Below, piece by piece: positions 14,861-26,780 of a stretch of DNA of 40,662 bases. The stretch is from a virus. Where the stretch lies: positions 1-40,662 of the IMG/VR virus record IMGVR_UViG_3300047388_000120, one strand, 5' to 3'. Position numbers and translations under genes: made by a program. A model generated the notes under the pieces. That model had not been told where the DNA came from, made no database searches, and worked only from the letters and a program-made list of their open reading frames with translations. How positions within the stretch are numbered: position 1 is the first letter of the stretch; each line of letters begins with the position of its first letter.

Positions 14861-16108
14861 TCAGGTGTCGCCGTCCTGCTCGCGGTGCTGGAGCAGGTGG
14901 TCGGCGAAGGCGTCTGCGGCCGGGCTGTCCTGCGGGCCGATGAACTCCTCACCGCAGCGCGGGCAGGTGTAGATCACGGTCGGCTCCTTCGGGTCGTCGC
15001 CCCGCATGAGCGAGGTCATGGCGTCGGTCCCGGCCTGGGTGACTGGGGGCATCAGGTGGGTGTAGATCTGCACGGTCGTGGCGTATTCGGAGTGCCCGAG
15101 GCGGTACGACACGTCCAGCGGGTGGACGCCGGCCGAGAGCATCAGGCTGGCCGACGTGTGGCGCAGCTGCCTGAAGTCGATGCCGCGGTGCTGGAGCTCG
15201 GCGTTCCTGAGAGACCGTTGCAGCACCCGTCGGACGACGGAGCGGTCGGCCACGGTGAACGGGTCGCTGACGTCCCCTGGCCACAGGAGCGCGCCGGATC
15301 GCTGGTCCCTAACGTGCTCCCTGAGGTGCTTGCGGAGGGCATCGACGATCGGGTCGGGGAGCGGCACGACCCGGATGGCGGCCCGGTTCTTGGTCCCGCG
15401 GATCGTGACCCGCTTGGTGTCGAGCCGCAGGTCTCCGCGCGTGATCCGCAGCCCTTCTGAGAGGCGCCAGCCGAGCCAGGCGCAGCAGAGCAGGAACGGC
15501 GCCCACCGCTCGGGCGCCGCAGCTACCAGGGCGTCGACCTCGGCGGGGCTCAGCACGTCGTCGCTGGTGATGTCGCGGTGCGGCCGGTTCGGGACGGTCA
15601 CGCCCTCGGCGACGTTTTCGTGGATCTTCTTGTTCCGGACCGCGTCGCCGAGGACGTCACGGACGAGTTGCCTGCAGTCGCGGACGGTCGCCCAGGCGTA
15701 GGGGTCGCCGAGGACGTCGTCGCCGTTCTCGTCGCGGCCCACGACGCGCGGGCGGGTCCGCAGGTCGTTGACCCAGCCCTGGAGCCCGTCGTGGGTGATG
15801 TCCTCGAGCGCGACCTTTCCCCAGCGGGGGAGTACGTGGTTGCTGGCCAGGCTGTCCTCGGCAGCGGACCGGACGGCGTGTCGCAGCGCCCGCCAGGCGT
15901 CGTACTGGACCTGGAACAGGGTCCGGCGCGCGCTCGGGTCGATGTAGCTCCCGGCGCGTAGCTCCCGGCGGAGGTCCTCGGCGAACGCGTCGGCCTGGCC
16001 CTTGAGGCCGAACGTCTTCTGCCGCTGCTTGTTCGTCTTGTCCCGCCACAGGACGCGCCACGGCTCGCCCTTCTTCTTGACCCGCTGTCCGACGCTTACT
16101 GATGGCAT
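14861..16108 (-). CDS. int: Tyrosine integrase with C-terminal zinc-finger-like tail
   Basis: This 415-residue tyrosine recombinase integrates and excises the phage at attP/attB. N-terminal about 1-60 is a basic arm-binding domain (VSVGQRVKKKGEPWRVLWRD), about 65-170 the core-binding domain, and about 185-360 the catalytic domain. Catalytic residues visible are R215 (GWRLSEGLRIT), K240 (RGTKNR), R316 in RQLRHTSAS, H339 (LGHSEY) and Y349 (TVQIYTHL). The usual first His of the HxxR box is R313. After the catalytic domain comes an extra tail with C382, C385, H404 and H408 spaced like a C2H2 finger. The start ATG has no ribosome site and may be leaderless. Confidence 0.95.
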   Translation of the reverse strand: MPSVSVGQRVKKKGEPWRVLWRDKTNKQRQKTFGLKGQADAFAEDLRRELRAGSYIDPSARRTLFQVQYDAWRALRHAVRSAAEDSLASNHVLPRWGKVALEDITHDGLQGWVNDLRTRPRVVGRDENGDDVLGDPYAWATVRDCRQLVRDVLGDAVRNKKIHENVAEGVTVPNRPHRDITSDDVLSPAEVDALVAAAPERWAPFLLCCAWLGWRLSEGLRITRGDLRLDTKRVTIRGTKNRAAIRVVPLPDPIVDALRKHLREHVRDQRSGALLWPGDVSDPFTVADRSVVRRVLQRSLRNAELQHRGIDFRQLRHTSASLMLSAGVHPLDVSYRLGHSEYATTVQIYTHLMPPVTQAGTDAMTSLMRGDDPKEPTVIYTCPRCGEEFIGPQDSPAADAFADHLLQHREQDGDT

Positions 16109-16115
16109 GACGAAG

Positions 16116-16146
16116 AGGTTAGGGGTAGACCCCTACGCCATGTCAA
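16116..16146 (-). promoter_or_regulatory. Putative integrase promoter (TTGACA / TAACCT)
   Basis: On the minus strand TTGACA (16146-16141) is a perfect -35 box, followed after 19 bases by TAACCT (16121-16116). The integrase ATG begins 7 bases beyond the -10, about where transcription would start, suggesting a leaderless mRNA as is common in actinobacteria. The spacing is slightly long. The palindrome 16125-16136 lies between the two boxes. Confidence 0.5.
16125..16136. promoter_or_regulatory. Operator-like palindrome 1 (GTAGACCCCTAC)
   Basis: This is a 12-bp inverted repeat with GTAG/CTAC ends, within a longer AGGGGT-AG-ACCCCT symmetry at 16121-16134. It sits between the -35 and -10 boxes of the putative integrase promoter, where a bound repressor would block transcription. 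It matches the second copy at 16244 in 11 of 12 positions. Confidence 0.5.
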
Positions 16147-16221
16147 GTGACAGCAACTCTAGTCAAATATGGCGGGAGCGGTGCAGCGTCGGTCAGGTTC
16201 GGTCCACCTTGCGTGTCGGTC

Positions 16222-18247: not shown

Positions 18248-19219
18248 ATGAGCACCCTCGACCTCGACACCCTCGTCCTCGACTCCGGCGGCCACGCCAC
18301 CCGGTCCGCCGGGTTGTGCTTCAACGAAGCCGCGGCCTGGTTCGCAGGCGAGCCCCACTCCGACCGCCCCGCGTGTGTCAGCCCGGTCCTGCGGAACTAC
18401 GGGCTGCGCCTGAACGACCGCTACCCCGACGACCTCCGCCAGGAGCTCAAGCGCTTCATCCCCCTCGTGGTCGGCACGGCCGACGACGGCCTCGACCCGC
18501 GCCGCCGCGAGATCGCCCGGCAGGCACTCACGACCGAGATCCTCCCGCCGTGGCTGCGCCTCGCCGGGCTCGAGGACCTCGCCCTGAAGGTCGAGGGCGC
18601 CAGCGGCCTGGACCGGCCCGCACTGAACAAGATCCTGCGGGAGGTCCGGGACGCCACCTGGGCGGCCCGCACGGAACGACGCATCGCGTTCCGCGCCCTG
18701 ATCAAGGCCAAGATCCTCGAGCGCCTACCTGCCGCTGCCGCTGCCGATGCCGCTGCCGCTGCCGATGCCGCTGCCGCTGCCGATGCCGCTGCCGCTGCCG
18801 CTGCCGATGCCGCTGCCGCTGCCGCTGTCGATGCCGCTGCCGATGCCGCTGTCGCTGTCGCTGCCGCTGCCGCTGCCGCTGCCGATGCCGCTGCCGCTGT
18901 CGCTGCCGCTGCCGCTGCCGCTGCCGATGCCGCTGCCGCTGCCGCTGTCGCTGTCGATGCCGATGCCGCTGCCGCTGTCGCTGCCGATGCCGCTGCCGAT
19001 GCCGATGCCGCTGCCGATGCCGCTGCCGATGCCGATGCCGCTGCCGCTGGCGCTGTCGCTGCCGGGGACCGTTGGGACTCCGTCTACGGCGCCGTGTACA
19101 AGACCATGCGGGCCTACTACGAGACCGCCGAGTCCTTCGCGGCTGTCCGTGAGCTCCGCGACTCGCAGCGCATGTTCGGGATCACCCTGTACGAGCGCCT
19201 CATCACCGCGCAGGCCTGA
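18248..19219 (+). CDS. Ala/Asp tandem-repeat protein
   Basis: This 323-residue protein has three parts. The N-terminal domain (about 1-160) includes HATRSAGLCFNEAAAWFAGE and SDRPACVSPVLRNYG, a pattern I recall from a family widespread in Streptomyces and actinophages. About 161-272 is almost pure Ala with spaced Asp and Val, encoded by degenerate GCC-GCT-GCC-GAT units. The C-terminus (about 273-323) is YGAVYKTMRAYYETAESFAA and onward. Relatives carry similar Ala/Asp/Trp/Arg repeats between the same kinds of ends. AAGGAG precedes the ATG. The repeats should form a long helix. Function is unknown. The repeat tract is prone to slippage. Confidence 0.8.
   Translation: MSTLDLDTLVLDSGGHATRSAGLCFNEAAAWFAGEPHSDRPACVSPVLRNYGLRLNDRYPDDLRQELKRFIPLVVGTADDGLDPRRREIARQALTTEILPPWLRLAGLEDLALKVEGASGLDRPALNKILREVRDATWAARTERRIAFRALIKAKILERLPAAAAADAAAAADAAAAADAAAAAAADAAAAAAVDAAADAAVAVAAAAAAAADAAAAVAAAAAAAADAAAAAAVAVDADAAAAVAADAAADADAAADAAADADAAAAGAVAAGDRWDSVYGAVYKTMRAYYETAESFAAVRELRDSQRMFGITLYERLITAQA
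18729..19063 (+). repeat. Degenerate hexanucleotide tandem repeat (CTGCCG/ATGCCG/CTGTCG)
   Basis: About 335 bases consist of CTGCCG-type hexamers with ATG and GTC variants. The unit keeps the Ala/Asp/Val frame. All three plus-strand frames are open across it, giving spurious Pro-Leu and Cys-Arg readings. It is coding, not a CRISPR array: there are no unique spacers. Confidence 0.95.
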
Positions 19220-20610: not shown

Positions 20611-21837
20611 ATGTCCGCAGTGACCGTGGCTGATGCTGACGCCCCACCCGTGCAGAACCTCCGCTTCACCGCTCCCGTCAACGACCTCCGAGCTGCCCTG
20701 TCCTGGACTGGCTGGGCTGTCCCTCGCCGCCCCGTGAGCGCAGTCCTGAAGGGTGTGCACCTGCTGATCGTCCGGGGTGTCCTGACTGTCCACACCACCA
20801 CGACCTGGGCGACGGCCAGCGCGACCGTGAACACCCCCGGCGGATCCGGTCAGGCCCTCGTGCCGTTCGCCCAGCTCCAGCGCGTCATCTCGGCCTTGCC
20901 AAAGGGCAGCGGCGTGACCCTCGAAGCCACAGGGACCGATCTCACGATCACGGGAGGCAACGAGGGCGGCGAGATTGTCGTCCATCTGCCCCTGATGGAC
21001 CTCGCAGCGTTCCTCGACATCGCCACCCATCCTGCGCCGACATCGGTGATCAGTCGCCTGTCCGGGCTGGCCCTGGCGGATCTCGGCCGCGCCACCATCG
21101 CCGCTGGATGGGACGACTGCCTTCCCACGCTCACCGCGGTGGAGCTCGGCTCTGATCATGACGGGCACTCGATCGTGGCAGCTGCGACCGACCGCTACCG
21201 CCTCGCGGTCTCCAGCGTCCTCGGCGACTGGGCCGCCCAGAAACCGATGCTCATCCCGGCAGGCGTCCTCGAACGCGCAGCGACCGAGTTCCGGAAGGAC
21301 CCGCAGGTCACTGTCCTGTCGGACGTCGACGACACCAACCTGCTCGCCAACGACCCCGGCAGGGTGACCTTCACGACCGGCACTCGCACCCTCACGGCCA
21401 CCCTCACCCAAGGCGCGTTCCCGAAGTGGCGGACCCTCGTGCCGACCGAGACGCCCCGCACCATCAACCTGGCCCGCGACGCCACACGGACCGCCCTGAC
21501 CGTCTGCGAAGCCGTGACCTACCGGCACAGCCCCTTCCGCATCCACCTTGACCCAGGCAAGCCGCTCCGCTTCGAAACGGGCGGCCACAAGCTCCACGAC
21601 TGCCAGGCAAGCAGCGTGAACGTCCCCAGGGCGACCCACACCGGCTTCACCGCCCCGACCGTCATCGGGCTCAACCCGACGTACTTCCGCGACGGCATGT
21701 CCAGCCTGCGAGGCAACGACGTCCTGATCTCCGCCAGCCTCCCGACCCGCCCGATCATCATGCGCGACGCCGTGAGCGACGACGCAGCCAAGGACGAGTT
21801 CTTCTACCTCCTCATGCCCGTCCGGATCCCCGCGTGA
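20611..21837 (+). CDS. dnaN: DnaN-like DNA polymerase III sliding clamp (beta subunit)
   Basis: At 408 residues this is somewhat longer than bacterial beta clamps (about 370-400). Three tandem clamp domains can be followed. The central motif ATDRYRLAV (about 192-200) is the diagnostic beta-clamp sequence, and the C-terminus ends FYLLMPVRIPA, matching the conserved MPVR/K end that lines the partner-binding pocket. The N-terminus has PVNDLRAALSWTGWAVPRRP, a usual first-domain sequence. The protein would form a ring on DNA and tether polymerase. AAAGGA precedes ATG 20611. No phage polymerase is present, so it probably works with, or competes for, the host polymerase. It ends GTGA-coupled. Confidence 0.88.
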   Translation: MSAVTVADADAPPVQNLRFTAPVNDLRAALSWTGWAVPRRPVSAVLKGVHLLIVRGVLTVHTTTTWATASATVNTPGGSGQALVPFAQLQRVISALPKGSGVTLEATGTDLTITGGNEGGEIVVHLPLMDLAAFLDIATHPAPTSVISRLSGLALADLGRATIAAGWDDCLPTLTAVELGSDHDGHSIVAAATDRYRLAVSSVLGDWAAQKPMLIPAGVLERAATEFRKDPQVTVLSDVDDTNLLANDPGRVTFTTGTRTLTATLTQGAFPKWRTLVPTETPRTINLARDATRTALTVCEAVTYRHSPFRIHLDPGKPLRFETGGHKLHDCQASSVNVPRATHTGFTAPTVIGLNPTYFRDGMSSLRGNDVLISASLPTRPIIMRDAVSDDAAKDEFFYLLMPVRIPA

Positions 21838-25351: not shown

Positions 25352-25563
25352 GCCAGGAGCAGCCCGCGAAGCCGAAGCGGCAGAAGAACTACGAGCAGCC
25401 CTACCAGATCGTGGTGCACCGGGACATCCGCCCGGGTCTGACCTGGGCGCATCTCGCGTGCGGCCACGTTGAGCCCGCCACGGGCAAGGACCATTGGGTC
25501 GAGATCCGCTGCGAGCAGTGCAACCCCGTCCCCCGCGGCGGCGCGCTCCCGGGCTGGACCTGA
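25348..25563 (+). CDS. Small Cys/His protein upstream of the DnaD-like gene
   Basis: This 71-residue protein is ATGA-coupled upstream and TGATG-coupled downstream. A basic N-terminus (QPAKPKRQKNYEQP) is followed by LAC-GHVEP and RCEQCNP, a CGH...CxxC pattern typical of a small zinc ribbon. The role is unknown. Close coupling to the DnaD-like/HNH gene suggests co-expression during replication. Confidence 0.6.
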   Translation: MSQEQPAKPKRQKNYEQPYQIVVHRDIRPGLTWAHLACGHVEPATGKDHWVEIRCEQCNPVPRGGALPGWT

Positions 25564-26483
25564 TGAGCTGGACCAAGAAGAGTGACACCGCGGCGTTCCA
25601 CCCGCGCGTGATGCGCCTGGGTAGCAGCAAGGACGTCCGGCTCCTCAACGAGTGCTGGGGTTTCCTGGACCGCGCCCTGACATGGTCGGGCGCGCACTAT
25701 ACGGACGGGTTCCTCCCTGAGCACTTCGCGGTGGCGCTCGCCCCCGGCCGCGCGAGCGACGTCGTGAAGGTCGCGATCCGCGCGGGAATGCTCGGCCCGA
25801 AGATCAAAGACCCCGATGGTGTCCCGGGTTGGCAGATCCTCTACGAGGTCGACGACCTGATGCACATCCGCAGCAAGGAGGAAGTCGACTGGGAGAAGCG
25901 ACACCGTCAGCAGCTCCGCGACCCAGAGATCTGGGTGCCCGTCCGGGTCCGTGACGGCGATGCCTGCCGCTACTGCGGACGGGTCGTGAAGTGGTACGAC
26001 AACAAGTCAGATCGCGGGGGAACCCTAGACCACGTCGACCCCGACCGCGACGAACTCGTCGTGGCCTGCCGCAAATGCAACAGCCAGAAGCAAGACCGCA
26101 CACCCGCCCAAGCAGGGATGACCCTGCTCCCAGCCCCCGCAGAGCCCTACTACAGCCCCGCCACCGTCACCCGCCTAGCGAAGTTCGACACGACTGTCCC
26201 AGCGCGCACGCAGCCCCCCACGGGGCGCGAGACGCAGCAACCAGCGCGAGACGCAGCCCCCACCGGCGCGCACGCAGCAGACGAAACCGACCGATCACCG
26301 ATCAACCGATCGTCACCGGTTTCTGGACAGCCAAACCGAATCCCGCCGGGTCGGGACGGGAACGGGTCAGGGCCGGGGTCTGGGTCGGGTGTTCCGACGC
26401 AACCACGAGCGGGACCTTCACGGACCCGCGGATCTCGAGGCAGACGCAAACCCCCACCAGACCAGACCGACCCGAAGGACTGA
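25563..26483 (+). CDS. DnaD-like/HNH fusion, putative replication initiator
   Basis: This 306-residue protein starts in a TGATG overlap. Residues about 1-110 form a winged-helix-type domain (SWTKKSDTAAFHPRVMRLGS, then LPEHFAVALAPGRASDVVKV, then GWQILYEVDDLMHIRSKEEV) like the N-terminus of phage replisome organisers. Residues about 125-178 are an HNH nuclease: C135/C138, D156-H157, C169/C172 and N173. From about 205 the protein is low-complexity (Pro, Arg, Gly, Asp). The DNA for this tail carries iteron-like repeats (26201-26311). The likely role is origin recognition with nicking or host-helicase loading. An alternative is a homing-type endonuclease that has captured a winged helix. Confidence 0.7.
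   Translation: MSWTKKSDTAAFHPRVMRLGSSKDVRLLNECWGFLDRALTWSGAHYTDGFLPEHFAVALAPGRASDVVKVAIRAGMLGPKIKDPDGVPGWQILYEVDDLMHIRSKEEVDWEKRHRQQLRDPEIWVPVRVRDGDACRYCGRVVKWYDNKSDRGGTLDHVDPDRDELVVACRKCNSQKQDRTPAQAGMTLLPAPAEPYYSPATVTRLAKFDTTVPARTQPPTGRETQQPARDAAPTGAHAADETDRSPINRSSPVSGQPNRIPPGRDGNGSGPGSGSGVPTQPRAGPSRTRGSRGRRKPPPDQTDPKD
26201..26345. other. Candidate replication origin: four iterons plus AT-richer stretch
   Basis: The repeat GCGCG-C/AG-ACGCAGC occurs four times, with ACGCAGC starting at 26208, 26232, 26251 and 26272 (spacings 24, 19 and 21). Copies 1-2 and copies 3-4 are in different reading frames, so the protein does not repeat and the conservation is in DNA. Three ACCGATC units follow (26290, 26297, 26305). 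Bases 26281-26340 are about 55% GC, low for this genome. The block lies inside the DnaD-like/HNH gene, like lambda ori inside gene O. Confidence 0.5.
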
Positions 26484-26486
26484 CGC

Positions 26487-26780
26487 ATGTCTCCACCCTC
26501 AGAAGACGACCTCGCGAAGGTCCGACGCATCGCAGGTCACTCCCCGCTCGACCAGGCCGCCGTGTGCACGGGCGTCGAAGTCACCGGTGCTTGCGCTCCA
26601 CTCGTCGGCCGGGCTCCTCTGCCGGCGCTCGCGTTCACCTTCACCCACACGGATGGGACCGAACTGACTCCGATCGTGCTGGTCCTGTCGACTCTCGCAA
26701 TGCACGATCTCGCCGAGATCGTGCACGAGCAGGTCCACAGGGCGATCGGGAAGACCGCCCAGATCCGGCGCCTGTCATGA
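26487..26780 (+). CDS. Hypothetical protein, carries a 25-bp DNA palindrome
   Basis: This 97-residue protein starts 3 bases after the DnaD-like stop. It has a helical N-terminus (PPSEDDLAKVRRIAGHSPLD), a beta middle (ALAFTFTHTDGTELTPIVLV) and a helical C-terminus (MHDLAEIVHEQVHRAIGKTA). The C-terminal codons contain a near-perfect palindrome at 26701-26725. No family is recognised. It ends ATGA into the RusA-like gene. Confidence 0.6.
   Translation: MSPPSEDDLAKVRRIAGHSPLDQAAVCTGVEVTGACAPLVGRAPLPALAFTFTHTDGTELTPIVLVLSTLAMHDLAEIVHEQVHRAIGKTAQIRRLS
26701..26725. repeat. 25-bp palindrome inside a coding region
   Basis: TGCACGATCTCG (26701-26712) and CGAGATCGTGCA (26714-26725) are perfect inverted copies around a single central C. 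Twelve paired positions are very unlikely by chance. It encodes MHDLAEIVH without any protein symmetry, so a DNA-level function such as a protein-binding site is plausible. Confidence 0.6.

Follow-up and report, generated by a model that had tools for sequence, protein, structure and literature searches.

In bacteriophage lambda, the replication origin consists of iterons and an AT-rich tract located in the middle of the initiator gene (PMC7466680). For the mycobacteriophage RepA, a position of the origin within the gene was also suggested earlier (PMC7157519). The DNA analyzed here, which is called the window, is a complete IMG/VR virus record (IMGVR_UViG_3300047388_000120) of 40,662 nucleotides, containing an integrase gene, a portal gene, a capsid gene, and a probable replication initiator gene at 25563-26483 on the plus strand. 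The region at 26202-26389, in the 3′ tail of this gene, is most likely the replication origin of the phage, served by the product of the same gene and working in the manner proposed below. As judged from its sequence, the locus is very probably a cis-acting origin element within the initiator gene, in which a G-run array is added to a lambda-like layout.

The probable initiator gene and its product

The protein encoded at 25563-26483 consists of a winged-helix domain at approximately residues 1-100, a helix, an HNH domain at approximately residues 124-190, and a low-complexity tail at approximately residues 210-306. The N-terminal domain is homologous to the replication initiation proteins of PHROGs in the profile-profile comparison (hhalign, probability 97.6%, E = 2.8e-12, 102 columns), and the window protein matches phrog_3926 with an E value of 5.7e-5; by homology alone, the product is a probable initiator. 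Replication genes are located near it, namely a sliding clamp gene at 20611 and a RusA-like resolvase gene at 26777, and a DNA methyltransferase gene and a terminase gene are also found around it. Homologues of the gene, referred to as family A, are present in 88 phage records, mainly of Actinobacteria, and in many IMG/VR contigs. No close relatives of the whole protein were found in the viral and genome contigs searched, and an alignment-based search was required.

The original prediction had described the protein as DnaD-like, which was not borne out. The Pfam matches of the window protein were to HNH models alone and included neither a DnaD family nor lambda O, and the structure search with the AlphaFold model (mean pLDDT of 93) gave only weak matches, to the HNH domains of Cas9 and to winged-helix regulators, none of which was confident.

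The zinc-binding Cys pairs and the catalytic His and Asn of the HNH domain are intact in the window protein and in 95 of 99 homologues, and these residues mark the domain of the window as a predicted catalytic nuclease. The catalytic His is replaced by Ser in three homologues, and the protein of the phage Juicebox is without three of the four zinc Cys. Furthermore, the initiators of a second family, family B, carry the array described below without an HNH match. Nicking through the HNH domain, which had been suggested as a possible step in initiation, is therefore unsupported as a required step, because four homologues have lost HNH residues and the array-bearing family B has no HNH match. The homologues in which catalytic or zinc residues are lost are L007, L012, L072, and L090; the array is located within the gene in L007 and L072 and just downstream of it in L012.

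Repeats and the AT-richer segment in the gene tail

Four iteron-like units of the form GCGCG(C/AG)ACGCAGC are arranged at 26202-26278 on the plus strand, where GCGCGCACGCAGC is found at 26202-26214 and 26266-26278, and GCGCGAGACGCAGC at 26225-26238 and 26244-26257. These units may be binding sites of the initiator. Their ACGCAGC cores start at 26208, 26232, 26251, and 26272, in agreement with the four repeats and the spacings of 24, 19, and 21 nt in the original prediction, the coordinates of which required slight correction; the core positions also agree with its statement that copies 1-2 and copies 3-4 lie in different reading frames. The three ACCGATC units reported to follow the iterons are present at 26290-26311 on the plus strand, with starts at 26290, 26297, and 26305. 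The stretch of 60 bases at about 55% GC was likewise recovered, as the GC content is 55% in the 60 nt from 26276, compared to the mean of 69%.

This AT-richer segment at 26276-26335 (45% AT relative to the mean of 31%) is a candidate unwinding region. It is at the 99.7th percentile for AT in the window, several other places of which are equally AT-rich, and the place at 16113 is richer. The latter, 16113-16172, is the most AT-rich 60 nt of the window and adjoins the integrase gene (14861-16108, minus strand); it could be an attP or promoter site. An inverted repeat, GAAACCG/CGGTTTC with a 27-nt loop, spans 26283-26323 and is by itself not significant in the single-strand folding (fold z of about −1.1). 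In the homologues L083, L089, and L098, ACCGATCGGT palindromes are located immediately before the G-run arrays.

The iteron motifs are not over-represented over the whole window, where 11 copies of ACGCAGC were found and 11.3 were expected. Therefore, their clustering was tested instead. A 7-mer occurring four times in 26195-26290 was obtained in 1 of 1000 shuffles of synonymous codons within the gene, in which the protein was kept. Three other places in the window, at about 5.1, 9.6, and 18.7-18.95 kb, also contain four or more copies of one 7-mer within 100 nt; therefore, the iterons alone do not single out the site. At 18691-18950, an unannotated coding stretch contains dense TGCCGCT repeats, up to eight per 100 nt.

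In 39 of 77 family A genes, the 250 nt preceding the array contain more direct repeats than the codon shuffles, and about half of the family A homologues have no significant direct-repeat excess in the tail. The iteron sequences vary from lineage to lineage, as is expected of binding sites that change along with their protein. On the question of whether homologues keep the protein tail while losing the repeats, the comparison is mixed: neither the exact iteron sequence nor the tail is preserved, and what persists is the class of element. The iterons are weaker support for an origin than the G-run array, and the cumulative GC skew of the window has no extremum at 26 kb.

The G-run array in two initiator families

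The G-run array, GGGTCGGGACGGGAACGGGTCAGGGCCGGGGTCTGGGTCGGG, is located at 26348-26389 on the plus strand and consists of eight runs of G3-G4 separated by loops of 2-3 nt. It is the largest G-run cluster of the window, and a cluster of equal size appeared in 2 of 300 simulated contigs. With at least four runs of G3 and short loops between them, the array has the pattern of a putative G-quadruplex-forming sequence. Absent from the earlier reading of the sequence, it is the best-conserved part of the locus in the sequence comparison. The clue to it was that the homologous tails appeared to share the peptide Gly-Arg-Val-Gly-Ser, which is the product of a 5-nt GGGTC repeat. No published description of such an array was found in a literature search, in which subscription papers were poorly covered and absence is weak evidence.

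A cluster was defined as at least four runs of G3 with gaps of at most 6 nt. In the family A sample of 99 homologues, comprising the window, 18 annotated phages, and 80 contigs, an in-gene cluster is present on the coding strand in 92, mostly at 0.71-0.93 of the ORF, compared to 13.1 predicted by codon shuffling that keeps the protein and the codon usage. Outside the gene, eight further clusters were found on the coding strand in 546 kb. The excess per gene is often modest (p ≤ 0.01 in 55 of the 99), and the strength lies in the set, the members of which are not independent events. In the Corynebacterium phage Juicebox, the array is outside the annotated genes, at a distance of 160 nt downstream of the gene, and is not covered on that strand by any open frame that has a start codon upstream. 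The gene of the Rothia phage Spartoi (GC 0.51; L003:3001-4617) has a long duplicated tail without a G-run array. In five whole family A genomes and one family B genome, the array pattern occurs at a single place, which is at the initiator gene.

The array loops are 2 nt long in 354 of 401 cases in family A and in 261 of 288 in family B, and are mostly AC and TC. GGGAC and GGGTC units number 149 and 140, respectively, in family A, and the loop is TC in 202 of 288 cases in family B. A rigid GGGWC pentamer was rejected as the conserved unit, because the units differ between phages and the spacing in the window is irregular. Nor was the reading frame accepted as evidence for the array, since any frame of a 5-nt repeat gives an identical peptide period.

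Family B was found by a scan of viral contigs that used the array pattern only. Among the matches listed were family A homologues, unrelated low-complexity sequence, and many genes whose products start with M(A/P)WFKVDD. The latter, which constitute family B, are classed as replication initiation protein in PHROGs and have a weak DnaT-like C-terminal domain in Pfam; this domain is absent from the window protein, which has the HNH domain in its place. The winged-helix N-terminal domain of family B is homologous to that of the window protein, and a search of the PDB with family B sequence found nothing.

The test sample of 80 family B members was picked by the N-terminal domain alone to avoid selection on the array. 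An in-gene cluster is present on the minus strand, at about mid-gene, in 61 of the 80 and on the plus strand in one, and codon shuffling predicts 23.1. Outside the genes, the family B loci and ten DUF1376 loci (376 kb) contain 17 clusters, all of them on the minus strand. Where family B members have no G3 cluster, GG runs with a spacing of 5-6 nt are often found in the corresponding place; under a looser GG rule, where the background is higher, the counts are 69 on the minus strand versus 4 on the plus strand in family B and 88 versus 2 in family A. Among the DUF1376-type phage replication proteins, a thin sample of ten, three (L300, L306, and L307) have coding-strand G-run arrays. In the Propionibacterium phage B3, the array, of three to four GGGTAC units, is outside the annotated genes; the stretch between annotated genes at L312:1820-1990 has GCAAACGGGTAAGCAA-type repeats, a minus-strand GGGTAC array, and a short palindrome.

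The flanks of the array have a polarity. Immediately 5′ of the array on the G strand, AT is enriched by 21 points over 20 nt in family B and by 7-8 points over 60 nt in family A; the side is the same in the two families despite their opposite gene directions. In 44 of 58 family B cases, a hairpin is located at this position whose stem is 5-11 bp long and whose short loop is often TTTA or GTCA. The mean stem in family B is 6.7 compared to 3.5 in shuffles, about 13% of which have a stem of at least 5; inverted repeats near the array are only mildly enriched in family A. Viewed along the G strand, family A has its iterons upstream of the AT patch, whereas those of family B lie beyond the array. 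Therefore, the shared core is the patch or hairpin together with the array.

The iterons, the AT-richer segment, and the G-run array are conserved as DNA over the two initiator families, irrespective of gene orientation. The proposal that an origin lies inside the initiator gene gains support from the PHROG-homologous N-terminal domain, the tail repeats in the homologues, and the conserved array at the same place.

Possible roles of the element and comparison with known origins

If selection had acted on a low-complexity peptide tail (Gly-Ser/Thr-Gly-Arg) and the array and the repeats had arisen as its side effect, the low complexity of both tails would be explained, and a GGGWC repeat does give an equal peptide period in any frame. 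However, codon shuffling yields 13 of 99 rather than 92, the family B array on the other strand encodes Pro-Asp-Pro-Thr-Arg, and the arrays of Juicebox and B3 are non-coding, which makes such an origin of the array very unlikely. A neutral microsatellite, growing by slippage in an unconstrained linker, is just as improbable. The short tandem unit, the disordered stretch, and the copies of a 198-bp repeat in the corresponding tail of the AGM phages are consistent with it, but the strand is fixed (88 versus 2 in family A and 69 versus 4 in family B), as is the position, GGGAC and GGGTC units are mixed instead of identical, and the array is found at one place per genome with an AT patch and a hairpin alongside.

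Two further explanations assign a function to the array. It could provide primase start sites within an origin, where the primers of the first lagging strand would be laid; GGGTC is the recognition sequence of T7 primase (PMC12839067), and GGGTC units are common, most of all in family B. This is unlikely, considering that GGGAC units are no rarer than GGGTC units in family A and that GGGTT, GGGTAC, GGTAAT, or GGAGT units are found in other phages. The element could also control transcription or messenger stability, as a G-rich structure near the gene end or through an R-loop, since G-runs are able to stall polymerases and the G strand of family A is the non-template strand. In family B, however, the G strand is the template and the array is located mid-gene, where no single transcription role fits both families, and the array is tied to initiator genes instead of genes in general; we consider this role quite unlikely.

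In the preferred reading as a replication origin, the winged-helix protein would bind the iterons, and this binding would strain the AT-richer inverted-repeat segment, where the strands would part. The G-rich strand would then fold, probably into a G-quadruplex, or be bound by an oligomer of a single-strand-binding protein, and the folded or bound strand would keep the strands apart during the loading of the host replicative helicase. A G-quadruplex is favored because the loops vary around constant G runs and the spacing in the window is irregular, and it is disfavored because some phages carry GG runs only. Weighing against the origin as a whole are the lack of a GC-skew turn at 26 kb, the differing sides of the array on which the two families have their iterons, the family A tails with no repeat excess, the array-free gene of Spartoi, the family B members that have just GG runs, and the non-significant inverted repeat of the window. 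As a tentative generalization, such origins may form a class shared by hundreds of phages and spanning at least two related initiator families. The hallmark of the class would be a G-run array that is unique in the genome and has a hairpin or AT patch to its 5′ side. This array would serve as a G-quadruplex gate and prevent the melted origin from closing, and its polarity would be constant whatever the direction of the host gene.

To our knowledge, most origins of actinobacterial phages are unmapped. A mark present once per genome in the initiator gene would make origins predictable by eye in many phages, including the easily tested phages of Mycobacterium smegmatis and Gordonia, and would offer a clean setting in which to examine a role of G-quadruplexes in the initiation of DNA replication.

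Among the known systems, the lambda ori in gene O resembles the window in that iterons are followed by an AT-rich tract inside the initiator gene, in the coding part outside the DNA-binding domain. Unlike lambda, the window has a G-run array, an HNH-bearing initiator, and a segment that is merely AT-richer, and its protein does not match lambda O in Pfam. Iteron plasmids and DnaA-type origins (PMC5043065) share with the window the repeated double-stranded sites adjoining an opening region, whereas, as described there, they are without a G-run array. The Brevibacterium AGM phages (MN023176-MN023191) have the gene family of the window, tail repeats, and a G-run array at the gene end, but the unit is far longer, with 198-bp tandem repeats whose copy number differs between isolates. 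In phage AGM10 (L005:3793-4842), the 198-bp tail repeats are annotated, and the genome lengths of the AGM isolates differ by about one unit. The actinophage initiators of PHROG 2447 and 3926, such as those of the mycobacteriophages Geralt, Cerasum, and Megiddo, have a winged-helix N-terminus homologous to that of the window and an in-gene G-run array; they differ from the window in the weak DnaT-like C-terminus in place of HNH, the mid-gene position of the array on the opposite strand, and the strong hairpin.
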